A stretch of 64,000 nt of DNA from Asparagopsis taxiformis (lineage: Eukaryota > Rhodophyta > Florideophyceae > Bonnemaisoniales > Bonnemaisoniaceae): positions 1 to 64,000 of the forward strand of contig JALQPE010000134.1 in the NCBI GenBank assembly GCA_030407315.1. The letters are read 5' to 3'. Positions 2,407-63,938 of the stretch are shown one piece after another. The notes below the pieces were generated by a model. The model made no database searches and was not told the origin of the DNA. It saw only the letters and a list, made by a program, of their open reading frames with translations. The position numbers and the translations under genes were made by a program. Numbering within the stretch: position 1 is the first letter of the stretch; every line of letters starts with the position of its first letter.

Positions 2407-5400
2407 TCATGCAGTCCTTGGCGGATATCCATCTTCTCTTGCAAAAATAGAGAAGGAACCACCATCCATAAACGAAGGACCTCCATGCGTAATTCCTCCA
2501 TTCGAAGTGCCTTGCTCCACAGAACATAATGAAGGGCTACAATTGTGGAGGAGACCAACCTTACGAACCCCTGAAGTGAGAGGGAGAAACCAGGAGCCGG
2601 AATCGGTGTTCGGAGCAAACGTAGTGGGGGACGACTTCTGCTTGATAACTGGAAGAACAATAGCGTGTGGTGGAGACAGGTTTTCCTGGTGAGATTCGTG
2701 TATGCAAACGTTTCCCGGTGAAGCAATGTTTCCATCAATAGTCAGGTCAAACACGGTGGTAACAGCCCAAAAAGAAGGCGAACAGGTCTTCTGTAGAATT
2801 CTAGAAGACGGGGAAGCTGAGTAGCAAGCTTGTACTACACAGCCAGAAGCTATTTCTTGTGGCTTTGAAAAGTCCCGAGACGCAGCAGAGGGCGAAGCTG
2901 CACAGGCAGGGTGGGCAGAACTGAGACGTGCTCCCTTGCATGGTTTTCCACGAAGCATGACTGCATCCGAATTCTGCCCACAGGAAAAATCCTGCTGTGG
3001 TAATGAAGAGGGAACTCCTGTCCACGAGTAATATGAATATGGAGAAGAGAAGAATGGTAAAGAAGACCTATTCAAATGTTCGAGAAGAGGTTCTTGACAG
3101 AGGTCATGCAGCGTACTAGCCGGGAGGTTCTCCATGGATTTACAGTGCTCCCGTCCGAATAGAACACGAAGGAGAAACCGTTTAGAACGTTGTCTCTCCA
3201 CAGATGCTGGAGTAGAATTGGAGAAACTTTTCAAAGCAAGATGGAGGCTTCCTTTCCAATAGTTTCCGAGTGCCGCTAACATAGCATCCAACTGTCTGTC
3301 AGCACCTCCGGAATGCTCTAGACCTCGTTTCATTTGTTGATGTGTTGCTTCGAATGATAGCTCAGCTACCTGGCGAGCGTGTCCGAGCAGAGGAACAGTG
3401 TGTTCAAATGCCTCAATGAGACGGTGCAAGTTTGGCTTATTGTCAAGAATCTTCCTTGCCCGGAATCCAGCAGTCTTGTTTTCCATCTCAATGTGGTCAT
3501 TATCATTCGTTACTATACCTTCTGTCTGCATCTTCCGTTTCTTCGAGACCGCTGTGCTCCGCTGTCTGGTAGGAACAGTCTTGAGCAGGTCATCCACTAG
3601 AGTAGCATATTCTTTCGATAGCTGCTGCAGACGACGGAGACCGTTGTGCGCAGAATTCCCTGTAGCTCTCTGTACTGCCTCAGAACCGTCGATATTTTTT
3701 CGTGGTAGGAAGTATGTAGCTGCAGATATAGAGGACAGGAGACGAACAAGTTCTAGGGACAGATGGCGTTGCTCTTCAGAAGCCTGGAGTGACCTTGAAC
3801 CGCTACCTTCGGATGACCTTGTAGTCTGCGATTGGAATTTCAGAGAAGACCTGAAGCAGTGTTCGGCGACGAGGAGAACTGCAAATCTGTCCGAGATTCC
3901 CATTGTATGAGTTTCACCTGCGTTGAAGTTATATATCCTGTTCTGATTTGCGAGGCCCAATACACGGAGGGCATCCACCATGAACCTGTCGGCCAGCCTT
4001 CTCACACCATCATTAGGCAAGCTTGAAAAAGCATTGTCCAGAGCATCCTTTGCCAGTCCATGGAGGAGATGGTCAATTCCAACAAACGTCGAACGGTATG
4101 GGTCCAGAATAGCAGGCACGACAGGGATTCGTAGACCATCGTTTCCGAGTGGTGTCCCGGTTGGAACCAGCCCTTTGGACCTAGCTTCATGAAGTAGTCT
4201 TTCAATGAGATGCAATGGAGTGTCTGTGATATTTTGCACTGTTCTCAAACCCAGATACTTCAAGATGTTTGCAGAACTTTCCGATGACTGAACAGCAGCT
4301 GTTCGCTCGGATGTGCGAAAGTGTGTATCAGAGCTCGAATGTAAACGGGTGTCGTAGCCAAACTGCGAGTTCTTCCCATATTTCCCCCCTCTTACAAAGA
4401 AACACAAATGGCATGGGCAGTCTGCGTTGTGCCCCATGACATCCAGCACATGAGAACAGGCAGGATAATCCGATACGAAACCAATAAAGTCCAGGAAAAT
4501 TAGACATTCATTGCCGTCTGGATCGACATCACGAAACCCCGACGTACATCCTTGAATAATGTCTCTAGAGATATGTCGAAGGATATGGTTTGTACTAACA
4601 CCAGGACCTGTGACACCGATAACGCGCACAGCAGAACTGTTCCGGCGACAGTCCAGCGGAAGACCCATTGGGAGCATATAGCATCCTCCAGCACTCCCTT
4701 TCTTACCAGAGGCTTCATTGAAGTCATCGCAGTATAAAAGAAATGGATAGACGTAGTATGTGGTACCGCAGCTGAGAACCCCACGGAGATGTGTAGGATG
4801 AAAGGGGCTGGGGCTCGTGCCTGGTTTCAATAACTTGACATTATTGATTGCACGAGTTCCGCCGACAACTTTGTAATGCCCTTCAGAGTTGACGAGAAAG
4901 AGCAGTTTTTGTGATGGGCCTGGCGGTCCGGGAGAGCTGACGACAAGCCCAATGAAGAACTGTATACCACAATTTTGAGTAGGGTTACACTCAGGACTGG
5001 GTGATAAAACTGTCAGGTGATCACCCGGCCGAGCATATTCCCGGAACGACTCTTTCTGAAGGATGAAGGCGGACCCATATGAATGCGGGGAGACCGAAAG
5101 CCTACTATGAAATGTGGCACCGGAGTTTATCCATGAAGAAGATGTGATAGCTTTGAACGACTCATGGCTGGAAGATAGTGATTCATGTTGGAAAAGGGAA
5201 CTGAGAGTAGGATCTAGAGAAGAGGCGTGCTGCCCTGATGTGACATGCAGTTCCACAATACTACCACCGAAAGCAGAAACGGGAAAGCCGTCTTTTACCG
5301 CCTCCGCCCTCATCGTGTAGTTTTGTCCTTTTAAGGAGTACTCTCTGAATTTTCCTAGCTTCGACTTGCACACGTTACCATGTAAACTTAGTATGTCATC

Positions 5401-6456
5401 CGAGTCGGAAGCATCCAATTGTGTGTTATCACGCCACGCAAGGTCGAATATATGTGGTGCAGTAATGTCTGCTCGTGCATATTCGCTTGGTGGAACGATA
5501 AGTACAGGTGCTGATTGACTAGCTTTGTTTTGTTCGACCTTGCTTCTTCGTAGAATTGCAGAAGAGGCAACACGAGCTGCACTACGCTCTGCGTTTACAG
5601 GGAAGTATACGGTTTCCGAACGTAACCATGCGTTGAAGAACAGCCACGGTCTTACCTTCCGCATAATTGTCGAATAATGGGGTAGACTTCGCTGAACGTG
5701 TTTGTTCGTGGAACCTTGTCTAGCGAAATCGAACAACACGCGATCTTCCTGAAGGTTTGCTGCGGTGCATTTCGTCGACCCTGTCAGTTTGGCGACAGCG
5801 TACAACGTTGTCCATTCTGTCATGTAATTGCGAGCTTTGTCTGGATTGGACGTGTTCATGATAAAGGGAGAAGAGATTAGGAGCTTCGCTTCTGCCTCCT
5901 CCTGTAGAAACAGGTCGTTGTCATCCGAATCGGAGTCGTTTGTTGCGGTGACGTTCTCATGATGGTCGGAAGCAGCGGGATGGCACAGTTTAGGAACTGT
6001 CGCAGCAGAAGTGACGGGGTCTCTGCCGGAGGATAGTACAATATCATCGTCGCTAGGAGTAATACAAGCTTTTTGAACTTCTGGAACAATTGTTCCAGAA
6101 GTATACTTGAGTATATTGTTCTGCTGCCCACTATTGGCGTACGTCAAAGGGAGGGTGGTATCCACAGAATTGCTCCCAGGTCTGAAGATATCCTGTGAAG
6201 GCGAGGAAGGGAGGACTGGATCTGGATCTGGGGTCTGCGAATTGGTAGCTATGGGAGCATGGGGAGGGTTCGAAGTGCTACCATACTCTGTTGCCGGGCG
6301 AGGATGATGGGTTTCTGGTGTATTGCAGTCCATTTCCTGAACGGCAAAAGGATTTGAGACTGTTCTGGATGTCGAGCGTCTAGTCCGATTGCGGACAGGG
6401 GCTACATAGTTGAAACGGAGCCTCGGGCCATTCCTAGACTTTCTCGGTCTAGCCAT
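2407..6456 (-). CDS. Transposase-like protein, Tnp2/Plavaka (CACTA-like) type, intact copy
   Basis: This is a large intron-less gene of about 1349 residues. I chose the ATG at 6454-6456 (protein start MARPRKS) because the second copy at 32133 begins with the matching basic segment MAPRRTP; the frame is open for 37 more codons upstream. The N-terminus is basic and then low-complexity. The middle follows the Transposase_21/Plavaka layout: FLLYCDDF (first acidic position, about residue 575), GGCYMLPMGLP, VRVIGVTGPGVSTN, SDYPACSHVLDVMGH (second acidic position, about 661), and CPCHLC, a CxxC pair. The motif ELSFEATHQQMKRG (about 1033) would hold the third catalytic acid. The final segment (GG...DGYPPRTA) is conserved in the other copy, so the long C-terminus is part of the gene. 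The family assignment rests on motif pattern only; no terminal inverted repeats were assigned with confidence. Confidence 0.6.
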   Translation of the reverse strand: MARPRKSRNGPRLRFNYVAPVRNRTRRSTSRTVSNPFAVQEMDCNTPETHHPRPATEYGSTSNPPHAPIATNSQTPDPDPVLPSSPSQDIFRPGSNSVDTTLPLTYANSGQQNNILKYTSGTIVPEVQKACITPSDDDIVLSSGRDPVTSAATVPKLCHPAASDHHENVTATNDSDSDDNDLFLQEEAEAKLLISSPFIMNTSNPDKARNYMTEWTTLYAVAKLTGSTKCTAANLQEDRVLFDFARQGSTNKHVQRSLPHYSTIMRKVRPWLFFNAWLRSETVYFPVNAERSAARVASSAILRRSKVEQNKASQSAPVLIVPPSEYARADITAPHIFDLAWRDNTQLDASDSDDILSLHGNVCKSKLGKFREYSLKGQNYTMRAEAVKDGFPVSAFGGSIVELHVTSGQHASSLDPTLSSLFQHESLSSSHESFKAITSSSWINSGATFHSRLSVSPHSYGSAFILQKESFREYARPGDHLTVLSPSPECNPTQNCGIQFFIGLVVSSPGPPGPSQKLLFLVNSEGHYKVVGGTRAINNVKLLKPGTSPSPFHPTHLRGVLSCGTTYYVYPFLLYCDDFNEASGKKGSAGGCYMLPMGLPLDCRRNSSAVRVIGVTGPGVSTNHILRHISRDIIQGCTSGFRDVDPDGNECLIFLDFIGFVSDYPACSHVLDVMGHNADCPCHLCFFVRGGKYGKNSQFGYDTRLHSSSDTHFRTSERTAAVQSSESSANILKYLGLRTVQNITDTPLHLIERLLHEARSKGLVPTGTPLGNDGLRIPVVPAILDPYRSTFVGIDHLLHGLAKDALDNAFSSLPNDGVRRLADRFMVDALRVLGLANQNRIYNFNAGETHTMGISDRFAVLLVAEHCFRSSLKFQSQTTRSSEGSGSRSLQASEEQRHLSLELVRLLSSISAATYFLPRKNIDGSEAVQRATGNSAHNGLRRLQQLSKEYATLVDDLLKTVPTRQRSTAVSKKRKMQTEGIVTNDNDHIEMENKTAGFRARKILDNKPNLHRLIEAFEHTVPLLGHARQVAELSFEATHQQMKRGLEHSGGADRQLDAMLAALGNYWKGSLHLALKSFSNSTPASVERQRSKRFLLRVLFGREHCKSMENLPASTLHDLCQEPLLEHLNRSSLPFFSSPYSYYSWTGVPSSLPQQDFSCGQNSDAVMLRGKPCKGARLSSAHPACAASPSAASRDFSKPQEIASGCVVQACYSASPSSRILQKTCSPSFWAVTTVFDLTIDGNIASPGNVCIHESHQENLSPPHAIVLPVIKQKSSPTTFAPNTDSGSWFLPLTSGVRKVGLLHNCSPSLCSVEQGTSNGGITHGGPSFMDGGSFSIFAREDGYPPRTA

Positions 6457-6759: not shown

Positions 6760-6823
6760 GCAAGAAACACTGTCAAGTAGTGAAGGAGATGCCTCTCCTT
6801 CACTACTCGACAGTGTTTCTTGC
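6760..6823. repeat. 30-bp inverted repeat with 4-base loop upstream of the transposase-like gene
   Basis: Arm 6760-6789 (starting GCAAGAAACACTGTCAAG) and arm 6794-6823 are reverse complements with one mismatch, around loop TGCC. It lies about 300 bp upstream of the start codon of the divergent transposase-like gene. It may be an operator for that gene or one of the element's ends. Confidence 0.85.
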
Positions 6824-6890
6824 AGCTTCGCAACTGCAGACAGAGCACTCAGTGCAAACACTATACTCCATGGAGTGGCACGGAGAAGTT

Positions 6891-7222
6891 CCAGACTAGT
6901 CTAAAATTTGGTAATTTTTGGGCACAAAAATTACCAAATTTTATGCCCCACTCGTAGTGACCGTATGGCTCGTACACCGCCCTGCTTTGTGCTCCCGTCC
7001 ATATTCCATGAAACACTCACCACCATCGGTCAGCACCACGTGGGCAGCACCTTCTATAGTTCCTTTCAAATACGTTTCTGGACTGCTGGTGCACAACAGT
7101 CTCAATGTACTACGACGAACACCGTCGGAATATTCAGAAACATACATCATTAAAGCATCGAATGCGACGACTAGACGAAATGTGGAGCAGGAGCGGTTGT
7201 CCAAATCTGGTGCAGACGGTCG
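6891..7222. repeat. Diverged outer copy of the left-arm repeat
   Basis: This 332-bp copy starts CCAGACTAGTCTAAAATTTGG, the same start as the next copy at 7223. Both run through ATGCCCCACTCGTAGTGACC and GGGCAGCACCTTCTATAGTTC to GAGCGGTTGTCCAAATCTGG. It is shorter and clearly diverged from the copy at 7223-7694. Its first 50 bases hold an 'empty' AATTTGGTAATT palindrome (6902-6943) with no CTGCAG hairpin inside. Confidence 0.75.
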
Positions 7223-7706
7223 CCAGACTAGTCTAAAATTTGGTAATTTTTGAGCCCAAAAAATTACCAAATTTTATGCCCCACTCGTAGTGACCGTATG
7301 GCTCGTACTCCGTCCTACTTTGTACCAGCGACCTTATGCCATGGGACACTCACCACCACGAGTAAGCACCACGTGGGCAGCACCTTCTATAGTTCGGTGC
7401 AATTATGTTTATCGACTATTGGTGCACAACTGTCTGGATGCATCACGATGACTAGATGTTCAAGATTGTATGAGGAGAGAAGTAGACGGACATAGATGCA
7501 CGTCATGGTAATACCGGTTCGGTTTTGAACAGAGCTGCAATGCGCCGTCAATGTTCGTCAACAACCATCCAGCGAAGAAGCGTAGCATTTGGAATGTTTA
7601 GAAACATCAGTAAAGCATGGAATGCATGAACTTGACGTAGCATGGGGCAGGAGCGGTTGTCCAAATCTGGAACAGGTGGGCGCCGGACGGGTCTAAAATT
7701 TGGTAA
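7213..7706. repeat. Left arm of the inverted repeat flanking the ParB-oxygenase gene
   Basis: The arm begins CAGACGGTCGCC at 7213. It is reproduced in inverted orientation at 12098-12665 on the other side of the gene at 8269-11778. By eye the long stretch from ATGCCCCACTCG to GGGTCTAAAAT is almost identical between the arms. The outer palindrome of this arm (7229-7275) is empty, while its inner palindrome (7695-7811) contains the CTGCAG hairpin; the right arm shows the opposite pattern. Confidence 0.85.
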
Positions 7707-7811
7707 TTTTTTGGGCTCAAAATTACTGCAGTAAAAACTGATCTAGCAAGTGCACTTGGCTAGATCATTTTTACTGCAGTAATTTTTGAGCCCAAAAAAT
7801 TACCAAATTTC
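7695..7811. repeat. Nested palindrome: AATTTGGTAATT palindrome filled by the CTGCAG hairpin
   Basis: The outer arms AAATTTGGTAATTTTTTGGG and its complement enclose an inner hairpin running from TTACTGCAGTAAAAACTGAT through GTGCAC (centre) to ACTGCAGTAA. The whole unit of about 115 bp is nearly self-complementary and lies 460 bp before the ATG of the downstream gene. Confidence 0.85.
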
Positions 7812-7959
7812 ACGCCCCTTCTTGTACTCTCTTCACGACTGTTCATTGGGTACTGATTGATTTGAACGCAACCGGTGAGTCTTTTGGCGCGTGGGCGCGA
7901 ATTTATTCGCACCCCTTCAGTTAACCTTCCAAACGTTACGTCTACACGATTTCCTGTCA

Positions 7960-8268: not shown

Positions 8269-11200
8269 ATGTTTCATCGTCAACGCTCTCGTCTCGCAGC
8301 TGCATCTTCCCGCGCTCCAGCTCGGGAGCTGACAGTCCCCGCGATGCCCCGGGCTGGTAGCACGCTTGCGAACTACGAGTTCCGGCAGATGACACTTCCG
8401 ATTGCGGACATTCATGTCACGGAAGAAACATCGCGCGAGGTTGATGAGTCGCATGTAGATGTGTTGTTTCAGAAGATGGTTCTTGAAGGCTTTCAGACCT
8501 CTTCCGTGGGCTCCGTGACTGTCGTTGGTCTAGCCCACGAGTCCGACGAAACACGCTTCTACATCGCGGATGGTCTCCATCGTCGTGGCGCTCTTGTCCG
8601 AGCCAAAGCGGAAGGAGTTGAACGTCTGGCTTCTATTGTGGACAGCGTTCCTGTTCAGGAAGCGTTCAGGCCAGATGGACAAGCCATGACGATGGAAGAC
8701 GTGCTCTACCTGAGTCAGCGGCTGAACGAACTGGTGCACACGGTTTTACCGACCACCATCCGCGACCGTATTCATGCTATCATCAGCATATACAACTGCA
8801 ACTTGAAGTACGCGAAGGAAGGGGAAAGGAAACTCTCCAGTATGACAGCTTCGCAGCTGTGCAACTGGTTCTTCCAGCGTCACTTCAGTGGCATACTCAG
8901 GAAGAGTACGGTGACGTCTATCGTCAATGTGGCTCTGAACATGAGACGTTCACCACGCACGTACGAGGCGTACAAGATGGCCTCTGGTAGGAAGGAAAAT
9001 GAGGTTGGAATCAGCCTTCTAGTGCTGAAGGACACCGCGTTCACAAAGGCTGAGGACCGTGCCAGTGAGCTGATGGTTAGGTGCATTCACTACCGCTCTG
9101 TGAAATTGCTCCAGTCCTTTGGTCGCATCCCAGGTCTCCAGCTCAGGGTGTATCTCAATTACATCAGAGATTTCTACCTGGTAATCCGTGAAGTCGCACC
9201 CAAGGTTGGGATGACTACGGACGAGCTGGCAGACCTGGAGGACCTCGAACCGGATGGAACGGACATGATCCCGACCTGGAAATCCGTGTTCAAGCGCATG
9301 GTTCAATATGAAGAAGAACCTGTGCCAAAACAGGAGAAGAACCACGAGCGTCGCCGAGAAGATTTCCGAACCGTCATCCTGCAACGTTTCAACATTGCAC
9401 CGGATCGTGAGACTCCGCCCCCTCCTCCCGGAGCATCTGGCGATGCAGTGCTTGCCACTGCGGCCAGTCAAGGCGCAAAAGATGTGGGGAAGGAGAGCGA
9501 GAAAGCGGCAGAGAGCGTTCCTGCTCCTGCCCCTGTGGCATCAGCCACTCCTCCGAAGTCACCATCACAGGTGATTCGGCAGGCTCGCTCTCCGACCCAA
9601 TTCGGGGAGAATATCATGGAACCTCTCCCCGTTCCCCTTCCCTCACAACCCCTTCCTGAGGACGAAATCAATCCGATGGACATTTCTCCTCCTGACTCCC
9701 AAGCCAAGCCGGACTCAACAGCCCGCGCCCCTTCCCCCTCGAAGCCCAACTCTCCTCCCCCTTCCCCCTCCAAACCCAACCCCGACTCACCCCCCCGCTC
9801 CCCCATGGCCGTCTCCCCACCCACGTCTGCTCCTGTTCCCGACTCTGCTATCGCCACGGAACAGCAGAACCCCGAAACCTCGGTTGAAGCTTCTCAACCG
9901 CAGGGGGGTGGTGGGGGGACAGTAGTTTCACGCTCTGTGCGCATTCCGCCCGATGAAACTACGCCACGCCCCTTTCCCTGCTCGCTTGGATCACACTGTC
10001 GCTTCCCCGGCTATGCCGCTGTGCACAAATGCACAGCGTGCAACATTCAGCCAGTACACAACCTGTGCGACTATCCTCGAGTATATCACCTCATCCCCAT
10101 CAAGTACCTCAACAACGGTGAGCGAGACATGGTGTTCGTCTGCTCCCGTGAGTGCTACGATGGCCGTCAACCGGATGACCCCCCTTCTTGGACCCCTCCT
10201 GCAGGGGTCACGTTACAAGAAGCGTGGGAAGGTGATGCGTACAATCCTTTCGAAAAGGACGCGTCCTCTACCGAGTCTGCTGAAGAAAAGGATAAGCAGA
10301 CCGGTGAGGCTCCGCGGAGTACGATGGGAGGGAAGGCGCCCATATCCCGGGAACCAGCCAAGAAAAGTGCCTCTGGAACACCGCGGCGGGGAGAAAAGAG
10401 GAGGAGAGAGCCGACCACTCCTCCTCCGACTCGGATGACTCGGTCCAAGACCAGAAGTGCCGCTATCGCAGAGCAACTCATCGCTCTCGGTAGCCCGTCT
10501 TCTCCCCCTGTCTCCCTTCCGCTTCCTGCACAGCCACCCTCATCTGGCGAAAAGGAGCGTGAAGGTGAGATAGAAGACGGCGAAACCCCTACAAAGACGA
10601 AGGTGACTTCCAAGGGGTTTCGGGTACACAGGTATGAGGACGAGCAGCCACCGCCACCTTCCTTTCTCACGGAGCAGACCACGCTTGCCCAAGCTGCTAC
10701 GTTCGTGCGTTCAATTTCGGGTCTGCTCCATCCTGAACACCGCTCTGGGTTCATCATGACGAGTGGGGAGGTGGAGGAGATCAGGGAGGATATCAACTCC
10801 GCGGCTGGTGGTACATCCGAGGAGAGGATTGTTTATTGGGAGCGGGCAAGGGCTAGTATTGATTTCGATGGATACATCGTCCTCGAAGACATACTAGGAG
10901 CTTCCGATGTACGGTCTGCAATCCACGAACTGCTCTCTGGGTTTGCCCAAAAGTTCGATGACAATGTGGAAGGGGCGTGGGGCACGATTCTGAACTCCGG
11001 TTCAGCTGCCCAGGATGCCCGGGGTGGCGCGTCTCGCCAGCGGTACATGACCCCCCGCTCGGCTGTCATTGAAGACCTCGACGGGGAGCAATCCATGTCG
11101 CTGGCTCATGACAAGGTTTCCGTGGATGTCATCCTCGCAATTATAGCGGAAATGTTGCACTTGGAGGATTCCGTTTCATCTTTGAACGGATTCAAGAAAG

Positions 11201-11778
11201 GCTCCAAGCTGCGCTTTGGGAGGACAGGACTTCGGATGCTCCTGACGGGTTCCAACTGTACTCGTCAGATCCCGCATCTCGACTTCACGTACCCAGGACC
11301 GCCACGCGAGGAACCGAACCGCTATTGTGGGACCCCTGCACCAGACCCAGACTATTCTTTCATAGCTACTGGTGCAGTTGGGTCCCCAATTCTGGTACGA
11401 CCGCGGAGTCATGCCTTCCTCAACGCCCCTCGTGATGCCTTCCTGGCCATCTGGCCCCATCTCCATCCAAAATTGGTTTGGATTCCACCCTTCTCTGTTC
11501 TCGTGACTCGTGGTGACGTAGAGCACGCTGGTGCGGGATGGCAGGATTACGACTTCGTGAAGGACAAAATTTCTAAGACTGGAGTACAATACGGTCATCA
11601 CATTCGAGTCCATAGCATGGCTGTACGTGATTCTTCCGAGCTAGTCAATGATCTCGTCTACGCACCGGTGCAGAGTGACGACCCCAATCGTCTGCCGAAA
11701 CCTTACGAGTTCGCACACGACTTTGAGTCGGACGATGAGGTACCGGATAGTAGTGAAGATTACATAACAGTTGAGTAG
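8269..11778 (+). CDS. ParB/sulfiredoxin-like + Cys-rich zinc finger + 2OG/Fe(II) oxygenase-like fusion protein
   Basis: This 1169-residue protein starts at the ATG at 8269 (context CAAACATG); the upstream in-frame TTG at 8248 is not needed. Residues about 42-125 form a ParB/Srx-like fold with FYIADGLHRRGAL (about 96-108), matching the G-x-H/E-R-R nucleotide-binding motif; a helical segment follows to about 310. Residues 380-560 are a Pro/Ser-rich linker. Residues about 568-628 have spaced Cys/His pairs (CTAC, VHNLC, CSREC) as in a PHD/treble-clef finger. The C-terminal region (about 865-1120) fits a double-stranded beta-helix oxygenase: H1003-x-D1005 (PHLDF), H1086 (GDVEHAGAGW) and R1113 (HHIRVH) are in the right order for iron and 2-oxoglutarate. 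Such enzymes hydroxylate or oxidise substrates; a DNA-base or histone substrate is inference. The gene sits between inverted repeat arms and directly before the methyltransferase-SET gene on the same strand. It ends with TAG. Confidence 0.7.
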   Translation: MFHRQRSRLAAASSRAPARELTVPAMPRAGSTLANYEFRQMTLPIADIHVTEETSREVDESHVDVLFQKMVLEGFQTSSVGSVTVVGLAHESDETRFYIADGLHRRGALVRAKAEGVERLASIVDSVPVQEAFRPDGQAMTMEDVLYLSQRLNELVHTVLPTTIRDRIHAIISIYNCNLKYAKEGERKLSSMTASQLCNWFFQRHFSGILRKSTVTSIVNVALNMRRSPRTYEAYKMASGRKENEVGISLLVLKDTAFTKAEDRASELMVRCIHYRSVKLLQSFGRIPGLQLRVYLNYIRDFYLVIREVAPKVGMTTDELADLEDLEPDGTDMIPTWKSVFKRMVQYEEEPVPKQEKNHERRREDFRTVILQRFNIAPDRETPPPPPGASGDAVLATAASQGAKDVGKESEKAAESVPAPAPVASATPPKSPSQVIRQARSPTQFGENIMEPLPVPLPSQPLPEDEINPMDISPPDSQAKPDSTARAPSPSKPNSPPPSPSKPNPDSPPRSPMAVSPPTSAPVPDSAIATEQQNPETSVEASQPQGGGGGTVVSRSVRIPPDETTPRPFPCSLGSHCRFPGYAAVHKCTACNIQPVHNLCDYPRVYHLIPIKYLNNGERDMVFVCSRECYDGRQPDDPPSWTPPAGVTLQEAWEGDAYNPFEKDASSTESAEEKDKQTGEAPRSTMGGKAPISREPAKKSASGTPRRGEKRRREPTTPPPTRMTRSKTRSAAIAEQLIALGSPSSPPVSLPLPAQPPSSGEKEREGEIEDGETPTKTKVTSKGFRVHRYEDEQPPPPSFLTEQTTLAQAATFVRSISGLLHPEHRSGFIMTSGEVEEIREDINSAAGGTSEERIVYWERARASIDFDGYIVLEDILGASDVRSAIHELLSGFAQKFDDNVEGAWGTILNSGSAAQDARGGASRQRYMTPRSAVIEDLDGEQSMSLAHDKVSVDVILAIIAEMLHLEDSVSSLNGFKKGSKLRFGRTGLRMLLTGSNCTRQIPHLDFTYPGPPREEPNRYCGTPAPDPDYSFIATGAVGSPILVRPRSHAFLNAPRDAFLAIWPHLHPKLVWIPPFSVLVTRGDVEHAGAGWQDYDFVKDKISKTGVQYGHHIRVHSMAVRDSSELVNDLVYAPVQSDDPNRLPKPYEFAHDFESDDEVPDSSEDYITVE

Positions 11779-12035: not shown

Positions 12036-12112
12036 GTCCTAAAATTTGGTAATTTTTTGGGCTCAAAAAATTACCAAATTTTGAGCCCAAAAAATTACAA
12101 ATTTTAGACCCA
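12036..12112. repeat. Tandem AATTTGGTAATT palindromes, inner end of right arm
   Basis: Two overlapping palindromes of the form AAATTTGGTAATTTTTTGGG...CCAAATTT lie back to back with no CTGCAG hairpin inside. They start about 260 bp after the stop codon of the ParB-oxygenase gene. This is the inner end of the right inverted-repeat arm, and it corresponds to the hairpin-filled site at 7695-7811 on the left. Confidence 0.8.
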
Positions 12113-16681: not shown

Positions 16682-16809
16682 GCGTAAAATTTGGTAATTT
16701 TTTGGGCTCAAAAATTACTGCAGTAAAAACTGATCTACCCGAGTGCACTTTGCTAGATCAGTTTTTACTGCAGTAATTTTAGAGCCCAAAAAATTACCAA
16801 ATTTTACGC
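16682..16809. repeat. 128-bp nested palindrome (family 1) after the methyltransferase-SET gene
   Basis: The arms start GCGTAAAATTTGGTAATTTT at 16682 and end in the complement at 16809. The inner part has CTGCAG twice, GATC twice and a GTGCAC near the centre. It lies about 190 bp downstream of the stop codon. Pairing is almost complete except near the loop (CCGA/CTTTG). From 16810 to 17196 I see no gene. Confidence 0.85.
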
Positions 16810-17196
16810 TGCCTTGTATGTGTTCTGGCATAGCCACGGGCACCACACAACCCTACATGGCATGTCGAAGGCTGAGGTTTGGATACCAGCCGTTCTTAGT
16901 TGTTTGCCTTGTTCCACATGCGGACGGTCTCCGCTTGTTTTTCAGCACAATGACAATGTAGAGAGAAATGCAGGTACCACAACTGTCTTGTACATTGTAC
17001 ATCCATTCTCGCATTTCGTACATCATGCATGTACCACACGCAGGAAAAGCTGCTCAATGTACATTCTATGTGGTATGAAGTTTAACGCTTCTATAATTAT
17101 AGCGTTAACGCTCCTAGCAACAAAACAGCCCGGAAGAACAAACTGAGCCGTGGTCATCTACATAGTCAGCTAGTGCTGCTTACATAGTGCTGAGAT

Positions 17197-54173: not shown

Positions 54174-56515
54174 GAAGCTCGTTCGTCATCGTGACTCGTT
54201 TCCGCCTCGAGTGGCGTTTCGTCAGCGGAGGTCGTCACGTAGACTCCGCTGCGGCCATTACGCTGGCCATTCCGTTCGTTCGCCCACGGGCGGGGGTCAC
54301 GTCGGTCATTACGAAAATCGCCGCGGCGCCTGTCGAAGGGCCTTCCCCCGTCACGATTGGGGTTTCGGAGTATCGTAGGCGGCGTGCCGTACCTCCGCGG
54401 GGTCACGTTCCCTCGCTCGCCAGGTCGTTCCTGGTTACGTTTAGCCATTCGTTGGCGGAAGTACTCAGCCTGACGTGGGTTGCTCTTCACGTGGAAGAGG
54501 TAGTACTTGTACGCGAAAAAGATCCGTTGATCTGGCGTCAGACGCGGACACGTAAACGTCGAGTGGCCATCTTCGCGGCATGACCAACACGACAGCGTCC
54601 AGTAATCATTCGGGATTACGGAGTGCGCCAATTGCGTCTGCTCGCTCGTGAGCTTCGGCACGTCCTCGCATGGACGGTTCAATCGAGCTTCGAGCTCGTC
54701 CGGCTTTTCGTTTGCCGTTTTCGTATCGTTGGGCGGCGGCCCGTTCGTGAAGAGGATCGCCTCCAAATTCTCGGCAACGTGAACCGCAGCGAGCGACACG
54801 TCGTCGTCGTCCCTCGCGGGGATGTTCAGGTTACCATCGTGGTAACTGGGCTCGTTAGCCCGTTCATTACGTAAGTACGCGGACTCATCGTAGTCCGCGA
54901 ACTTCCTCGACTCGTGGTCGGAAATAGCCAACGTAGGCTTCACCGGAAACCGCACTTTCGGTTTCGCGGCTGACGCGACAGCTGCCGTACGTGCACGGAA
55001 GGTCGTTCCTTCGGCCGTCGCCAATCGTCTCACAACGGTGAGGTCGTTCCTCTCTCGTTCGGGGAGTGACCGGAGTCGTTCCGTCACTGCTGCCCGCGTC
55101 GAGGGCAGCAACCCACGTACGTAGTGGTGAACGAGGAGTCGATCCGTAAACACGTAGTTACACGCCCGCGTGGCGGTGTCGAGTCTATCAGCGTACTGAT
55201 TCTCGTCCTCGTTAGGACTCTGCGTGATCATCGTGACCTTTTCGTAGGCCTCCTGCAGCACGTCGTCTTGCAGGTATCGTTTGATCAACGCGTTGATTAC
55301 GTGAGGCCACGAGAACCTCTTCGTCGGATCAGTCGTGATCACGCCAGTCGTACACTGGGAATCGTAAAACCGTCGGGCGTCCCCTTCGAGGAAGAAGTGC
55401 AGCGCACGTACTGCCACTCCCTCGCACACTCCGAGTGTGCTGAACCCATCACGTATTTGGGCGAGGAATCCGAGTAACGTAATCGGATTCCGGCCGGAGA
55501 ACGGCTTCAACGTAGGGAAAAGTCCCTCCAGCTCACGTTTGAGCTTGTGTACGCTTTGACTCTCGTTCACGTAGAGATGTTCACGTACATCGTTAAGTCG
55601 GTACATGCGGTACGATACCACGTTCGCAAATGCGTCGAGCATTGTCGTGTGCTCTGCCAACGCGTGGCAAACGGGTCCGAGGGCGTTCCCTGGTAAGCGT
55701 ACCGCGTCGGCACGTTCGTTTTCGTGGACTCGCGTGTCCGTCGTGCCGAACGTTCCCAGCCACGGAATGTACGTCTCCCGTGGCGGTGGAGCTCTCGTAT
55801 CGAATTGCGCAGCACGTGCTGCGTCCGCCGACCGCGCGTGGTCTGGCGTATCGTTAAAACGTAATTGCCTTCGTGGCGTCTCGTCGGGGTGGGCGATGGC
55901 TCGTTGCACTGTCGCCCCCCTTCCGTACGTTGTCGGGGTCGTCGGACCGGGTGTTGGTGGGTATCCTCCCGGAACGGCCGGGGAGGATTGCGAGTTATAG
56001 GCGCGCGAGCCTTCGTAATTCGGATCGCTTCCGCTCGGCGGAGCGGAACGTCCGGCGACGATTTCGTTGAATACTACGACAAACGAGTCGAGTCTTCCCT
56101 CCACGGCGGAGAGGCGGTTTCGTAAATCTTCGTTTTCCCGTTCGAGGGTCGCTGAGCGTTCACGTAACGCACGAGCTTCGCGCTCCGAGACTCCGAGTCT
56201 CTGCCTTACGGCTTCGTCGACGGCCGCGTCGCTCGCCCTTTCGATATGACCTCGAAGGTCTTCGTACACTACACGTAGTGCCGTGGGAGTCACGTTCCCT
56301 TCGTTGAGCTGACCGCGCGTTGCGGGGTCCATACTCACGGACTCAAACGGGCTTACCGTACGTGGTAGCTGGCCGATCGCCTCGATATCCGGCGGGATAG
56401 ATCGATCAGTCGCAAAGATCGCTTCTGCTGACAAGGCCACGTCGGCTTCGGCGTCCGCTGACGTTGGCAACGGTTGCCTGGGCGACGCGCTGGAATTCGA
56501 CACAGCGTAATTCAT
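54113..56515 (-). CDS. Retrotransposon Gag
   Basis: This is an 800-residue Gag starting at ATG 56513-56515. Residues 90-165 form a coiled coil (EREARALRERSATLERENEDLRNRL). A Pro-rich region follows, then a retrotransposon-gag capsid domain (about 330-500: LFPTLKPFSGRNPITLLGFL, ALHFFLEGDARRFYDSQ, LIKRYLQDDVLQEAYEK, QYADRLDTATRACNYVF). The zinc knuckle is CWSCREDGHSTFTC (C-x2-C-x4-H-x4-C, about residue 680). The tail is Arg/Asn/Gly-rich, suited to nucleic-acid binding. It is intact, so this element could make particles even though pol is frameshifted in the sequence as given. Confidence 0.85.
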   Translation of the reverse strand: MNYAVSNSSASPRQPLPTSADAEADVALSAEAIFATDRSIPPDIEAIGQLPRTVSPFESVSMDPATRGQLNEGNVTPTALRVVYEDLRGHIERASDAAVDEAVRQRLGVSEREARALRERSATLERENEDLRNRLSAVEGRLDSFVVVFNEIVAGRSAPPSGSDPNYEGSRAYNSQSSPAVPGGYPPTPGPTTPTTYGRGATVQRAIAHPDETPRRQLRFNDTPDHARSADAARAAQFDTRAPPPRETYIPWLGTFGTTDTRVHENERADAVRLPGNALGPVCHALAEHTTMLDAFANVVSYRMYRLNDVREHLYVNESQSVHKLKRELEGLFPTLKPFSGRNPITLLGFLAQIRDGFSTLGVCEGVAVRALHFFLEGDARRFYDSQCTTGVITTDPTKRFSWPHVINALIKRYLQDDVLQEAYEKVTMITQSPNEDENQYADRLDTATRACNYVFTDRLLVHHYVRGLLPSTRAAVTERLRSLPERERNDLTVVRRLATAEGTTFRARTAAVASAAKPKVRFPVKPTLAISDHESRKFADYDESAYLRNERANEPSYHDGNLNIPARDDDDVSLAAVHVAENLEAILFTNGPPPNDTKTANEKPDELEARLNRPCEDVPKLTSEQTQLAHSVIPNDYWTLSCWSCREDGHSTFTCPRLTPDQRIFFAYKYYLFHVKSNPRQAEYFRQRMAKRNQERPGERGNVTPRRYGTPPTILRNPNRDGGRPFDRRRGDFRNDRRDPRPWANERNGQRNGRSGVYVTTSADETPLEAETSHDDERASWAHDDNVSNGPAPGNDQAM

Positions 56516-56596
56516 AGACCGTCGTCTGTAGCACGTAGCTTTTCGTTAACGTAAAAGAGCTCAACCTCGTTGGTTGTCGTTATGCTCGTAGCAACT

Positions 56597-56613
56597 TCTA
56601 GGTCGGAAGACCA
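56597..56613 (-). promoter_or_regulatory. Candidate primer-binding site
   Basis: One base inside the 5' LTR the minus strand reads TGGTCTTCCGACCTAGA, starting with TGG as needed to pair with a tRNA CCA end. I cannot name the tRNA from sequence alone; a host tRNA ending GGAAGACCA would confirm it. Confidence 0.5.
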
Positions 56614-56614
56614 G

Positions 56615-57273
56615 TGTGGAACAACGTTAGTTCTAGATAGCTGGTACGAGCTACGGACACGCTGTCCTTACGAAACGAAACGAGCAGTCCACCCGCTGGT
56701 GTTTGACTGTATTGTTAGAACGGTAGAAGGTAGAGTGGTTAGCGAGTAGACACGAGCGTCACGACGCAACAATCCACGCGAGGATTACGTTAGCAAACGA
56801 GGTGGTACGTCACCGGAGGCGCTCTCAACCAAGCCCGGAGGCACTACACGCAATCAGCCTTACGTGCGGCGATGGGTAGGGAGTACGCAGCTCGACGGAG
56901 ACGAAGCCTCGTTAGGCAGAACGTAAACGTAAAACGTAGAAGTCAGTCGTAGACTAGAGCCGTTGCTCGATCGTTGTGTTGTCCCCTTTCCCTCCCGGCA
57001 CGATGCCAATACCTATATGGCCACGATGGCATCGCTTTACAGTGTAAACACTGCTCGTAACGTCCCCGAATGGGAAAGGACCTTGTGGGTCACACGTAGG
57101 GACCCGTTGGTCCGTTGGCCGTTGCCAATACGTTCGTTGCACACGTGTGCAGGTTGCGCGCGCGCATTCGCCAGCAATGTTCGTGCATTGCTGTCGCCGG
57201 TCGTATCCGCCGAAATTCGAATTCCGCGGAAAACGTAAATATTTGCAATTTCGGAATTGCCACGTATACTACA
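56615..57273. repeat. Right LTR (5' LTR of the minus-strand element), 659 bp
   Basis: It appears identical to 43622-44280 in length and sequence by eye. It is the promoter-bearing LTR for gag-pol transcription toward lower coordinates. Confidence 0.9.
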
Positions 57274-59293
57274 CGCGTCACTGGGTACCGCGACATGATT
57301 ATGCGGAAACGCTTTCACGCGATGTACCCAGACATCCCACATGCTGCGCTCCCAGCCACATGTGGTGATGATGCCCCCCATCCCTTCCTCTTCCAATTCC
57401 TTGCCCATCCCTTCATCCTCCATTCCTTTGCCCCCACCACCTCAACTGGAATCTTCCAGCGATTCCGAGGTTGCCCCTGTTCCTGTCTCTACCCCTGCCG
57501 TGTCGGCATCCTCCCTGCGGTGACCTCGGTCAAGCCGACTGCGCGTGGTCCCCAGGATGGCAGCGAACGCTCTGGTCCAGTTTCCCACGCCGGGACTGGT
57601 ACCCCCAACCGTCCTGTCCAAGCCGCGCAGGAGCAGGTCTCACCGGCTTCGCAGCCTGAGCCTGCGACTCCGCTGCCGAGCAGCACCCTGCTGCTCCGGC
57701 CCCCGCTGTCGAAGCTTCCCGTTCTGCATCTGCTAGCAGTTCGGGAAGCTCCAGCGATGACAGTTTCGTCCCTTCACCATCCGGTGGGGTTGGACAGAAG
57801 ACGGTTGCGAGGATTTCGACGGAGGGCCCTACTCCCGAGAATGTGGTCGAGGGCAGCAGTGCGAAGGGCGGTGCAGATCCTGACAAAGATGTCATTGAAG
57901 TCAGTGATTCTGCACCGCCCGGAGTGGAAACTTCTGGGAGGAAAGTGATGCCCAGAAGGAGTACCCGCCTGCAAGCGAGTCGTTCCGGTCGTGGTGGAAC
58001 GGCGGGTGGTGCTGTGGAGGTCGTCGAGCTGGAGAGCGCCCCCGAGGATGCGGGTGAAAACTCCATCCTCGGGAAGCGTAACTTGGATGCGCCTTCTGCG
58101 ACGCCCGAGCCTTCTACCAAAAAGAGAAGGCTCGGTGAGACTTCATCAAAGTCGTCGTCAAAGAAATCCAAGTCGGCTTCCCGAGGTCGCTCTCGGGAGC
58201 CGGTTCTCCAGTTCGACGACGCCCAGGAGAATCCCATTCCCGACAGTATCGTCGATGAGAATGTGGCCGCCGTTCTCCCCAGCGCAATTGCGTCTGGCAG
58301 CCGGATGAAGTACTATATGGAAAGTACGACGGTGGAGACGGTTCGGGCGGAAATGAGGGCGGCAGCATTCCAGGCAGCTGCATCGCCGGGTGCTGAGGAT
58401 ACGGTGGTGGAACAGTACTTTGCGGTGAAGCGGGCGTTGCTGGAGAACTTGGGGGTTATTGTGTTGGAACGCTTGTTGGAATCGTCCACGGCTGGGAGTG
58501 CGACGCATGAGCTGTTCGGTCACTTCGCTAGGCAGTTCCCGCTGGTTGAGGAGGTTGAAAAACCCTCTCAGCAGTCTGATTCTAACGATGACGACAGGGA
58601 GCCACAGGACGAGCCGCCAGCTTTCGCAAAGCCCGGCTTCGATCCTTCGCCGTGGCAGTTCATCCACAACGTGGGTGCTGCGCAGGCCGCATCGATGGTG
58701 GTCGTGGGCGCCTCTCTCTGCCACGGCGTGAGTTGTGCGATAAGCTGGAGGAGGAAAATCTGGATATGTACAAGAACAAGTTGGTGGCAGAGCTTGCTCT
58801 TGGTGTTTGTGCGGAGTTCTTGAAGCTGGGAATGGAGGGTGATGATCCTGTCTTCTTCCCGAAGACAGGATTGCGGCTGCTTCTTACAGCAGATGGGGCT
58901 GCGGACCAGGATGGGCACACGGACTTCAAGGTATCAACGAGTCGTGTTGCAGGACCTACCGAGTCTCCATCATATTTCATGATGTCGAGCGGAGCAGATG
59001 GATTTTCTATAGTAGCTGCCCCTTATAGTCATGTATGCCTAGCCAATCCGGACGCCGATATGTGGAAGGTTCCCATTCATAGGCTTTATGTGCCACCCTA
59101 TTCCGTATTGGTTGGTCGCGGTGACCTTTACCATTACGGGGTCGGCTTCAGCCGAGGAGATCTTCCTGCAGGCGAGAAGTTAGTCTATGGCCTGCCCACG
59201 CGCGGCCACATCTACTTGAAGACGGAGAAGGACGTCCTCACGGACCACATCCACACCGTCGAATATTACAAGTACGATAGGAGCAATAGATAG
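57274..59293 (+). pseudogene. Third ParB-oxygenase gene, 3' half, with several frameshifts
   Basis: After the second CGCGT copy (57274-57278) coding resumes at 57279 in the frame left at 43621 (VTGYRDMIMRKRFHAMYP, compare ATGTKAMQE in the second copy). In the Ser/Pro-rich linker the reading frame changes near 57360, 57520 and 57690. A long frame from about 57700 to 58720 carries basic segments (PSTKKRRLGETSSKSS) and the start of the oxygenase region (MKYYMESTTVETVRAEM, VIVLERLLESSTAGSATHELF). Near 58720 it shifts again into KLEEENLDMYKNKLVAEL, GLRLLLTADGAADQDGHTDF (H-x-D), GADGFSIVAAPYSHVCL, GDLYHYGVGF (distal His) and PTRGHIYL (Arg). Motif residues are intact. Decay and base-call indels cannot be told apart here. 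Confidence 0.7.
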
Positions 59294-59797
59294 CATACCA
59301 GAAGTATTAAACCTATACTACTGTTCCCTGCTAAAAAGTTCTGTCTTTCTCATCTCAACATTGTTATCTTAGCCCACTTTTCGGTTTTCATCTATACATC
59401 TGGCCTTCATCTCATAGTTTAGTGGTACTCAGCAGATTGCTTGCTACTTTTTAATATTAGTCGACAACGTTGTATGATTTTACTAGCTAGGCCGTAGGGG
59501 GAGACTAGTTTCAACCCTTGACAACGCGCACATTTCGACTACGAGAGCCGTCACTGTGATAAATTATTGGTAGAATTTTCGTCTATCTTCCCACCTACAC
59601 TAGGCTACCTATATATATACAGGGTATAACCTGAACAGAGACCACGTGAGGTAAAATACTCCTGAGAGCTGCTCACAGCCGTACAGACCTTTGCTGAGCA
59701 ATTTTCCCGACTTCACACTTCGCTTCTCACCTTTACCAAGATGGGAGAAGGACGAAACTCCCTGCTGCTTACAGCCGAAGCCGTTTACCAGGGTTCC
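59294..59797. other. Gene-free stretch between convergent genes
   Basis: This is the 3' flank of the third ParB-oxygenase gene. No gene is seen. It leads into the family-2 palindrome array. Confidence 0.4.
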
Positions 59798-60163
59798 TTA
59801 CAGCAAAGTCATCGTTACGATGACTTTGCTGTAAGAAAAGAAAACATTACAGCAGCCACGATTTCTTTACCGGGTAAAAAAATTGTGGCCGCTGTAATGA
59901 TTTGCTGTAAGGAACCGTTTCCTTGCAGTGGCCAAAGAATTTTTTACCGGGTAAAAAATCAGCAAGAAATTTTACCGGGTAAAAAAATTGTGGCCGCTGT
60001 AATGATTTGCTTTCTTACAGCAAAGTCATTGTTACGATGACTTTGCTGTAAGAAAACGTTTCATTACAGCGGCCACAATTTTTTTACCCGGTAAAGAAAT
60101 CATGGCTGCTGTAATGATTTGTTTTCTTACAGCAAAGTCATCGTAACGATGACTTTGCTGTCA
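59798..60163. repeat. Palindrome array, family 2 (three copies plus a partial)
   Basis: Copies lie at 59798, 60015 (ATTGT in place of ATCGT in the left arm) and 60127 (CTGTCA end), with a fragment (GATTTGCTGTAAGG) near 59908. ACCGGGT/ACCCGGT palindromes with GGCCGCTGTAATG arms alternate with them. The array lies between two convergent genes (59293 and 60469), so it is not only a promoter feature. Confidence 0.9.
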
Positions 60164-60468: not shown

Positions 60469-63400
60469 TCAGTTAGCTGGCCAATATTTTCTACCATAGT
60501 CAGCAAATATCTCCTCATCAGCTTCAACGTCTCTGGTCAGAACGACCTTGACAGCATGGGGATTCTTGATATTTGAAGCAAAGTCCGGTTTGTCTATGGC
60601 ATCGCCTTGTCGAAACTCGGCTGACTGTGTTCGACTCACCTCGGTCGCTTTCTCCATTCCGTCAATGACCCGACAATCATTGAGGTAGCTGGTACAATTA
60701 TAGACCGCTGGAACGAGCCAAACCTTCCGAACAGGTGCACCCCTCCCTATGTACGTGGTTTCCAATTCCATGTTGTAGTCCTGGAACCTCTCTCTTGTGC
60801 ACCCAAATCCTTCCGGGCCGTACATCACTGATCTCTGCGGTTCCGAGTCTCGAATCTTCGCATAGAAAATCGTCCCATTGTACCAGCCAATGACCGTCCC
60901 CTTCTTCAGTTTCTTCGCCGCGAATACGCCAAACCCACCACCTCTTACCTCCGATTGCGAAACATAGACACCGTAGAATGCGGCATCGGCAGCCAGAATC
61001 GCGTCCGGGTCTATGCTCCAAAACGAGTGCATGTCCTCGGCCGGCCACTGGTCCATAGGCACCCCGCCCAATCTGTGAAGCATAGACCCGTCCTTCTTCA
61101 TTGACGCAACGAACACAAGCAGATGGTTCGGCAATGCTGTCACAGCAGGGAATCCTTCTGGTGCATCTGAGATGTGCTTCTGACGAAGCCTTGGAGCTTT
61201 TCCTGTGACCGGTACCGACTCGTCCCCAAGAATACTCTCCACCTCACGCTGCAAGATCCCCCATATCGCCCGGCTTTCACCTCACTGACGAAAACATGCA
61301 GTATCCACTCCTGCGATGCATCGTGGCACCTTTTTTCCTTCTCACACCCAATGAACCGACGATACGTACCATCCCTCAACGTCATACACGCTATGGCTGT
61401 GCTGTACGTTCCCGAGAAGAAATCCATCACGATATCGTTCTGCTTCGAAAATCGTTCCAGAAGCTCACGAAGAGTGGTCAACGCCTTCTGCTCATGGCGC
61501 AGTCGGTTGTTCTGCCCATCGTATTGAGCTTCACCAGCCGACAACCTCGGAACGTTGTCAATCGCGTTGGTGAACCCAGGGTGCCTCGATATGTCCGGAT
61601 TGTGCAACCTGTAATCCACCATATCGTACGCAGCCATACCCTTCCCCCGCTTATAAGCATGGATAACGAAATCGTGCATATTATGCAGTGTGCACGTTTT
61701 CGTCGATGGATTGGACGTAAAGCTGTGTGGTCGGCGAGATAGCACGACTGGAACACTGTCCACAATCATCTTGCCAGGCTCGGCATTTCTGATTGCATCC
61801 ATCCATGCCACGAGTTGGCGCACGCTGGAATAGATCAGAGCATGGCCGCCAGGCCGAAGAACTCGAACTATTTCACACGCAACACTCGCCAACTCTTCCG
61901 GCTCCAGAATATCGTACTCCGAGTTTTCTCTGCCGCCTTCCCGCCTCGTGTTGAATGGAGGATCAGTGAGCACAAGCTGAACACTGTCCTCCAACACGCC
62001 ATCTTCCAGGAAACTAATTTTGTCCTCCACCTCTTTGGCTACATCAGTGGCGTCACAATTCACAGTGTGAATGTAACGCCCCATCACAGCTTCCAGCTTG
62101 GTGACGTATTCTGGCTTGGTTTCCTTTCCGACGTCAACGAGCGGTGCTTCTGTAGGCGATACAGTGTCAACCTCCATAGCGTCATCCTCTTCCGCATCTT
62201 CTCTTGTTGCTGTTTCGCTAGCAACCGCCGCATTATCGTCCTCTCCACCACCACCGCGCTCCAGCCTAGCCTTCTTCCTCTGTGGCTCCAGACTATCCTC
62301 TTCTATATCCTCGCTGCCATTGTTTGGCACTGCTGCGGATATTTCCATCTGCGCAGGTGCACCTTCAAGGATGCCAGGCTCGGGCGTATCCTCAAGACTG
62401 TGTAACTCATCCATGGTCAGAGGAAGCTTTCGTTGCTCTCGGGTTCGCAATAACCAAGCCTTCAGCCTCCTCTGACCATCCAGGGCATGAGACGTGTTCA
62501 ACTTGGCTCGCATGAACGAGTTCAATCCGAACTTGTCAGGAGTGTCGAAAAGCAAGGCTCGAAGTCTCTGCATCAGCTGACCACGCTCGGCGAAAACATT
62601 CACCTCAGTGACACATTGGCGTATCGACAGCAGGAAGGCGCTTGTCAATGATCGCAGCCTTGCATCCACAGCCACTGGAAGGTCGGCACAGAACCCGTTT
62701 TCACTGTCTACAGTTTTCGGGACAATGGTCAGGTTTTTCCGATGCTCCTCGACCGCACAGCCATCAGACCGATTCGGGAGTGACCTGAAGCAAAGGCTCG
62801 CGGGATCGAATACCATGAACGGCCAGCACATCGATTCAACATCCTCATACCCCAACACTCTTGCCCCGGTATCCCATGCAGCTAACACACGGTCGACAAC
62901 AAATCCAAGCTGGTTGGCTTGCGCACTGGATGTTGCAATTCCAACCATTCCACCACCACCAATGGCCCCGGATGTGGCTCTGGCCCGCCTAGATGGCACA
63001 CTGCCCATCTCCTTACTGCGAATAGCCAAGATACACTGGCACATCATAACCATCAGCCTCCTGAACCGCTTCTGGCTAGCCTGCAAAGAATCTTGCATGT
63101 CGGATGTAGCGCCGTCCAGAAAGTACCTGCTCGAAAGCAGTTCACGGTTCAGTGGAGAGGACAATTCTCCGCGGGGTGTCTTGCCAAACATTTCGACGGC
63201 ACGAGAACTAGTCACCCCCACCTGTTTCGGAAACTCAACCATCCTCGGAGAATCACCCATCTCTGCATTGAGTCCCCATGCATGACAAAACATTTGCCAC
63301 AGACGCAAATCAATCGCACTCGAATCTTCTGCTCGGTGATACGGCCGAAGCACAGCCAGAATAGACATGCATGAGCTGTACTGCGGTTTACCACTCAGGC

Positions 63401-63938
63401 TTGAAGCAATTTGGCCGCTTGGATCGCAGGATTTGATCCAGCCCAACACATCAGCCATCCTCACAGACGAAATGTGAGCGTACTTGTCCTTTCCGTTTTG
63501 GACCCAGTACTCGTCTCTGAGATCAACGGCGATCATCAGATACTCAACAAACATCATGCGCCTTTGCAGGCCTGCAATGTCGTTGGATGTCGTCGCTCTC
63601 GCACGGTCCAGCACAACAGCAGTACTGCTGTTGGTGTCCGCCACGATAGACTCTTCTCGCATAGGAATCGTAACGCCAGGAGGAAAGACGCCCTTCTCCA
63701 TTCCACGTACAATTGCCATGCAGCAGTGCGCTCCATCCAATATCTCCAGAACGCCTTCTCGAAACCTGCCAGTCACGGGATGAGCTGTGTCATAACCGCT
63801 GTTGCGAATGCTCTCCATGAGCGCTTCCACATGACTTCCATCGACATCGCGAATCGATACGAATTTGCTGACTTGATTGGGGTCGATGAACAGCCATCCG
63901 TCGTGCTTTTCACCGTGATTGTGGAACGTTCCTTCCAT
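60469..63938 (-). pseudogene. Second ParB-like + DNA methyltransferase + SET gene, one frameshift before SET
   Basis: The ATG is at 63936-63938 (MEGTFHNHG). The ParB-like domain aligns with the other fusions; its motif reads LDGAHCCMAI (about residue 69), so the usual HR is HC. A nuclear-type basic segment (PQRKKARLERGG) precedes the methyltransferase: LVLTDPPFNTRR (motif IV, D about 659), VLRPGGHALIYSS, then NDIVMDFFSGTYSTA (motif I, about 834). This is beta-class order with DPPF. After YRRFIGCEKEKRC the first frame runs into 61140. The SET part starts in the next frame near 61255 (AIWGILQREVESI) and has GGGFGVFAAKKLKKGTVIGWY, YLNDCR, ASNIKN and EIFADYGRKYW. The one-base slip lies at or near the G5 run (C5 on the plus strand, 61258-61262). 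The paralogue at 13022 has no break, so this gene may be intact in reality. Confidence 0.7.

Follow-up and report, generated by a model that had tools for sequence, protein, structure and literature searches.

Two giant DNA transposon families of an apparent red alga carry predicted ParB-linked methyltransferase-SET and oxygenase genes

The window analysed here, a stretch of 64,000 nucleotides (positions 1-64000 of contig C134), contains two related gene cassettes, each with genes for a transposase, a predicted ParB-oxygenase and a predicted ParB-methyltransferase-SET protein. Comparison with the rest of the genome (141.5 Mb in 3156 contigs, some possibly haplotypes, so that the places listed may outnumber the true copies) shows that two transposon families, A and B, carry these cassettes as gene cargo; both have multiplied in an apparent red alga. 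The original prediction, made from the letters of the window, had named the same gene types at both loci, with an extra ParB-oxygenase copy in B, and the genes were found at those places. Each element holds two further genes, here called open reading frame (ORF) 4 and ORF5, beyond its list.

Family A occupies positions 1-22098, with both ends in the window; the contig starts at the left end of A. Its three main genes are single long open frames. The transposase (2407-6456, minus strand, 1349 aa) contains conserved DDF, SDYPA, CPCHLC and FEATHQ blocks and appears DDE-like and CACTA/Plavaka-like. The ParB-oxygenase PO-A (8269-11778, plus strand, 1169 aa) has a predicted ParB fold at about residues 38-160 and an HxD...H...R block at about residues 1003-1115, and PMS-A (13022-16495, plus strand, 1157 aa) combines a degenerate ParB region with N6/N4 methyltransferase and SET domains.

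Family B covers 30511-64000 and continues beyond the window as far as contig position 68520; its left 810 bp are absent from the window copy. This copy is defective, with all four main genes in split frames. The transposase (32133-35425, plus strand) consists of two open frames, 32133-32852 and 33329-35425. The first ParB-oxygenase, PO-B1 (37355-40477, plus strand), is divided into a ParB frame (37355-38371) and an oxygenase frame (38387-40477), and the second, PO-B2 (42327-59293, plus strand), is broken by a Gypsy element and a frame change. In PMS-B (60469-63938, minus strand), the methyltransferase (61140-63938) and SET (60469-61101) parts lie in separate frames. The Gypsy long terminal repeat (LTR) retrotransposon (43622-57274, minus strand), which is not part of the cassette, was labelled by its reading frames at 49745-56515; it sits inside PO-B2, and its insertion was recent, because its two 660-bp LTRs are 100% identical.

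The two families are distant relatives. Identity between A and B is 33% for the transposases (over the compared part), 31% over the oxygenase and 22-23% over the ParB part of the ParB-oxygenases, and 26% for the methyltransferase-SET proteins. PO-B2 shows 33% and 46% identity to PO-B1. ORF4 of A (17615-19288, plus strand, 557 aa) is related to its B counterpart (E 9e-10, 22% identity), and ORF5 (19415-21109, minus strand, 564 aa) is weakly like that of B (E 0.001); the B counterparts lie beyond the window, at C134:64452-67613. On these alignments ORF4 is clearly common to A and B, and ORF5 possibly so; neither gene had a Pfam match over the cut-off in either family.

The original prediction had proposed a mobile element family with ParB-oxygenase and ParB-methyltransferase-SET genes and its own palindromes. 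Comparison between copies bears this out, with shared borders for both A and B, inverted ends and many copies. The A left border (window position 1) is common to the copies in C635, C2263 and C1000, and the right border (22098) to those in C2263 and C1000; the C635 copy is broken near the equivalent of window position 20844 by a B end. A has 14-bp inverted ends and CA...TG termini (CACAGGATAAGCAA...TTGCTTATCCTGTG). The left repeat (1-14, plus strand) has one mismatch, base 1 being different in the window copy, and the right repeat (22085-22098, minus strand) matches exactly. A 2-bp target duplication was found in both copies for which both flanks were read (TG in C1000, GT in C2263). The C2263 copy sits in a Gypsy element, in which one base differs from the Gypsy copy of the window.

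For B, the border at window position 30511 recurs in 11 of 11 other left-part rows among the matches listed. At the right, 36 of the 38 other right-end rows among the matches listed end at contig position 68520 or at most 13 bases beyond, a count that leaves out the window and C1788, which has the same flank and may be the same locus; the remaining two stop about 83 bases short, and a further small piece reaches 68520. The left end, CACTACGGTGTTG, is reached 787-810 bp further left in C1561, C6 and C218 (C6 and C1561 have the last flank bases in common and may be one insertion), and is also present in C390 and C1573. With the right end, CAACACCGTAGTG, B also has CA...TG termini, and its copies span about 24.9 kb in C1561 and 24.8 kb in C390. 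A target duplication, CCC, flanks the copy in C1573, one of three with both flanks read. The C1561 copy is flanked by A on the left and by sequence resembling window 24846-25292 on the right, and the C390 copy by Gypsy-like sequence on the left and sequence without a match on the right. In C635 and C1561, B ends are embedded in A sequence, representing nested insertions. These results identify A and B as DNA transposons of giant size (22-25 kb) whose short inverted ends are of the CA...TG form.

Next to B, window 27000-30514 is a 3.5-kb stretch with 27 further matching rows (99-100% identity); several contigs carry it as inverted pairs separated by about 2.2 kb. It adjoins B at 30511-30514, four bases being common to both, and carries a 220-aa frame (29332-29994).

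Genome-wide, 24-base markers of A (at most one mismatch) gave 130 methyltransferase, 64 oxygenase and 136 transposase sites, and reversed controls gave none. Clustering was assessed on contigs up to C2483, with limits of 8-15 kb, for the 97 methyltransferase, 53 oxygenase and 99 transposase sites among those listed. Another cassette marker lay near 60 of the 97, 46 of the 53 and 44 of the 99 sites, respectively; the methyltransferase-SET and oxygenase genes are thus not mostly apart from the other gene types. The simple chance of finding a transposase site near a methyltransferase site is about 3%. The 38 methyltransferase-transposase pairs comprised 18 with the transposase upstream on the opposite strand, mostly at about 10.5 kb, and 20 with it downstream on the same strand, at 9-10.5 kb.

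Many copies retain intact enzyme genes. Among the A methyltransferase-SET copies, 22 of 41 rows cover the full length without stops, with identity of 99% or more, and a subfamily, A2 (C1824), shows 80% protein identity to A. For B, a single 1155-aa ORF was present in 15 of the 30 fetched copies (window copy included), and open frames of 1185-1187 aa occur at 34 of the 49 listed places; the split was examined across copies for this gene only. The 15 intact copies, from 30 fetched of 49 listed, were picked on purpose, a choice that excludes stops and not missense changes. Their distinct variants comprise 8 nonsynonymous and 34 synonymous changes (20 and 111, respectively, when summed over copies), compared with a neutral ratio of 3.2:1. 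The B methyltransferase-SET gene is therefore under purifying selection. A protein 100% identical to the A methyltransferase-SET protein over its full length (P0005) occurs in the public sources jgi and ena, on four contigs, the longest of 9.8 kb.

Profile searches confirmed the methyltransferase and SET domains that had been called, but returned nothing convincing for the transposase, ParB and oxygenase. PMS-A matched Pfam N6_N4_Mtase (8.6e-14) and SET (1.6e-5), and PMS-B did likewise (1.7e-16 and 2.3e-7); the SET scores, 25.7 bits in A and 31.6 bits in B, exceed the cut-off of 22.4, and the N6_N4_Mtase matches pass their own cut-off. The methyltransferases contain DPPY/DPPF and FAGT/FSGT blocks, with DPPY before FxGT, the order of beta-class N6/N4 DNA methyltransferases. 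Across the genome, PF01555 gave at least 150 scored rows, among which several score groups can be told apart; many of the rows lie in frames of 900-1200 aa. The N6_N4_Mtase groups beyond A and B, with frames of 943 and 1080 aa for example, make further elements of this kind likely. In the protein collection, only 4, 1 and 3 matches were found for the three A proteins, too few homologues to build reliable models or trees.

No Pfam or NCBIfam match at E<=1 and no PDB profile match at E<=10 was obtained for the transposases, and the Transposase_21 label initially suggested was not borne out. Their alignment (five rows, one 99% like the first) has invariant D379, D464, C483-x-x-C486 and E837 (A4 numbering). 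This corresponds to a DDE-type transposase with C(2)C between the second D and the last E, in which these residues would have catalytic roles. Together, the ends, the short target duplications where found and the D-D-CxxC-E pattern place A and B, as a sequence-based assignment, in the CACTA/EnSpm-Plavaka type (CMC clade); ends and transposase motifs point to CACTA/Plavaka and away from KDZ.

The [D/G]G-x-H-R motif is the nucleotide-binding motif of the ParB/Srx fold. It reads DGLHRR in PO-A, DGSHR in PO-B1 and PO-B2, and DGAHR in intact PMS-B (DGAHCC in the window copy). A predicted model of the PO-A ParB region has a ParB/Srx fold, and the original ParB call passes this structure comparison for PO-A; outside the region the model gave low-Z matches only, which say nothing on folds there. 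Over residues 757-1169, which include the oxygenase region, the predicted local distance difference test (pLDDT) is below 50 and the fold is uninformative. The putative 2-oxoglutarate (2OG)/Fe(II) oxygenase domain is identified by its residues only: HxD...H...R, the pattern of the facial triad and the 2OG arginine, is invariant in 4 of 4 sequences. It had no TET/JBP family profile match, and no Pfam match at E<=1, nor at E<=10 for the domains alone. The sole match to Pfam ParB_N in the genome lies in a 290-aa frame at C1526:7582-7839, possibly a bacterial contaminant.

Palindromes occupy the stretches between the genes. In A they lie between transposase and PO-A (6760-7276, with further related copies at 7689-7817), between PO-A and PMS-A (12049-12630) and after PMS-A (16682-17293). 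In B they form an array between transposase and PO-B1 (36061-36466) and occur between the two ParB-oxygenases (40731-41772) and between PO-B2 and PMS-B (59797-60161). One scan found 24 near-perfect palindromes in 70 kb, compared with none in each of two shuffles (mononucleotide, 200-bp blocks); of the 24, A holds 8 and B 15, with 1 between the two, and none of the 23 within the elements overlaps a main gene, in agreement with the predicted palindrome family between the genes of each locus. A looser search gave 70 inverted pairs. The A 20-mer TTTTTACTGCAGTAATTTTT occurs 208 times in the genome (reversed control, 0). Among 100 listed sites, 42 are within 12 kb of a scored methyltransferase copy and none is inside one; 92 lie at most 6 kb from an A marker site and the other 8 farther away. 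In A2, the 900 bp before the methyltransferase-SET gene align to A (E<=0.1) solely over the palindrome and its immediate surroundings, about 130 bp with 84-91% identity. B palindrome arrays differ in length and order among near-identical copies. At C1583:57767-58913 and 86135-87814, an A palindrome segment recurs about every 537 bp, in the first case directly before a methyltransferase-SET copy, possibly reflecting variable copy number of a candidate control region.

As to the host, 9 of 13 phycobilisome matches are near full length on contig C469. These suggest a red alga as host, with a contaminant contig or some other phycobilin-bearing alga as further possibilities. A bacterial or viral origin of the window is ruled out by the 141-Mb genome, the LTR element and the many dispersed copies. 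No cytosine-5 methyltransferase (PF00145) was found in the genome, whereas 10 of 14 control genomes were positive; an intron-split gene could escape this search, and other methyltransferase families were not searched.

ParB is a DNA-clamp domain of bacterial type, and ParB proteins load on palindromic sites in a cytidine triphosphate-dependent manner and then spread. The best explanation of the whole, to which we give about an even chance, is that the accessory proteins form an element-directed chromatin module. The ParB-fold domains would hold the methyltransferase-SET and oxygenase enzymes on the element via the palindromes beside the genes. The methyltransferase would write N6-methyladenine (6mA) or N4-methylcytosine (4mC) on element DNA, SET would methylate histones or another protein, and the 2OG oxygenase would remove or oxidise methyl groups. 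The net effect would be that element promoters stay open, or that the ends are marked for transposition, against host silencing. ParB targeting to palindromes, the writing and erasing of marks and anti-silencing are inferred. If the host truly lacks 5-methylcytosine (5mC), the oxygenase is unlikely to be just a 5mC eraser, and 6mA, 4mC or protein methyl groups would be likelier substrates. In a stronger form, which we consider doubtful, the transposon enzymes would be the main DNA-modification machinery of a host without detectable cytosine-5 methyltransferases, loading on element-specific palindromes as ParB does on parS, sliding or spreading along the element, and jointly writing and erasing DNA and histone marks there. 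If true, this would be a eukaryotic parS-like self-marking system.

Several observations weigh against the transposon-borne module. Pfam ParB_N matches no element protein genome-wide, PO-B1 has just weak GmrSD_N and DndB matches (E 0.06-0.1), and a ParB profile comparison with a phage ParB-methyltransferase was not significant (probability <1%). The DGxHR motif is missing from PMS-A (GGMDVC) and from the three A-type proteins related to it. The B left end could be located at 5 of 10 inspected places, being absent from the stretches read in C849 and C2358 and from the predicted places in C635, C1833 and C2945, and two of the three B copies with both flanks read (C1561, C390) have no matching target duplication. 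No partner marker lay near 55 of the 99 transposase and 37 of the 97 methyltransferase sites, which may be contig ends, fragments, diverged or transposase-only copies. Palindrome conservation, read in one A2 copy, could stem from gene conversion among the several copies per element.

It is possible, at a lower probability than the element-directed module, that the enzymes serve as anti-silencing or counter-defence cargo with effects across the genome or on the host and without direction by the palindromes, the latter being promoter or transposase-binding (subterminal-type) repeats. CACTA elements have subterminal repeats that are bound by the transposase, and CAGTAAATTT, found close to the right end in each family, fits this expectation. 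The palindromes lie in gene-flanking stretches, where promoters are expected, and the ParB motif of PMS-A is degenerate. Left unexplained are the fusion of ParB to both enzyme types and its retention in both B oxygenases. The variable B arrays and the A palindrome segment recurring about every 537 bp in C1583 would suit hypervariable, conversion-prone palindromes without function, with accessory genes as passenger captures, and Ectocarpus giant transposons carry varied cargo according to a passage of PMC12477816. We regard this as unlikely, given the purifying selection on the B methyltransferase-SET gene, the occurrence of the same gene types in both families with protein identities of about 22-33%, and the palindrome kept in an A2 copy where its flanks are not alignable. 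A reading of the cassettes as host genes, or as a domesticated locus among repeats, is very improbable, being contradicted by the shared borders with inverted ends, the many near-identical copies and the nested insertions.

Petroll and colleagues reportedly described giant EnSpm/Plavaka elements of red algae in 2025, in Bostrychia. A passage of PMC12477816 refers to giant EnSpm elements with multiple accessory genes (Petroll 2025); as far as it describes them, these resemble A and B in giant size, CMC type, the presence of several accessory genes and probably host group, and are likely their nearest relatives. The same source reports Sola1-1_Ec32 of Ectocarpus, a 21.5-kb algal DNA transposon with a 1104-aa ParB and N4C/N6A methyltransferase protein on the opposite strand to the transposase. 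Its authors suggest that such proteins bind and modify their own transposon; for green and red algae they refer to Iyer 2011 and Petroll 2025. Sola1-1_Ec32 differs from A and B in belonging to the Sola-1 superfamily, and the passage mentions no SET, ParB-oxygenase or palindromes.

TET+ transposons of fungi, including Plavaka, KDZ and EnSpm, carry a dioxygenase (PMC12730594; Kojima 2025, in the passages covered), and CMCT ends are there mostly 5'-CA..TG-3', with target duplications of 2-5 bp and a C(2)C motif between the second D and the last E. A and B resemble them as DNA transposons with a predicted dioxygenase, CMC-type ends and C(2)C, and in the short target duplications found in both A copies and in one of the three B copies with both flanks read. 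ParB is absent from the main text of that paper and beta-class methyltransferases from the passages covered, and the oxygenase here gave no TET/JBP profile match. The passages also cite a SET methyltransferase in HarbingerS and MuDR transposons of Phytophthora; these are other superfamilies, whereas in A and B the SET domain forms one protein with ParB and a DNA methyltransferase. A phage ParB-N6/N4 methyltransferase (L062, IMG/VR) has the same order, a ParB-like N-terminus with GGHQR followed by the methyltransferase, but no SET in its 455-aa frame and 25% identity in the methyltransferase part only; IMG/VR and prokaryotic genomes gave only distant methyltransferase matches (4 and 2 loci).

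No title or abstract beginning in the literature searched combined ParB-oxygenase and ParB-methyltransferase-SET in one element, and full texts may describe one. The claim that no eukaryotic element with this set has been described is too strong. Comparable parts occur in other transposons of algae and fungi; the full set was not seen in the literature searched. Within this genome, in which no cytosine-5 methyltransferase gene was found, the palindromes of A and B offer candidate target sites, and the many near-identical copies with intact enzymes under purifying selection make it testable whether transposons can carry their own site-directed chromatin system. A and B, abundant and apparently recent, unite components that had been known from different transposons: ParB-methyltransferase, SET and a putative 2OG oxygenase.
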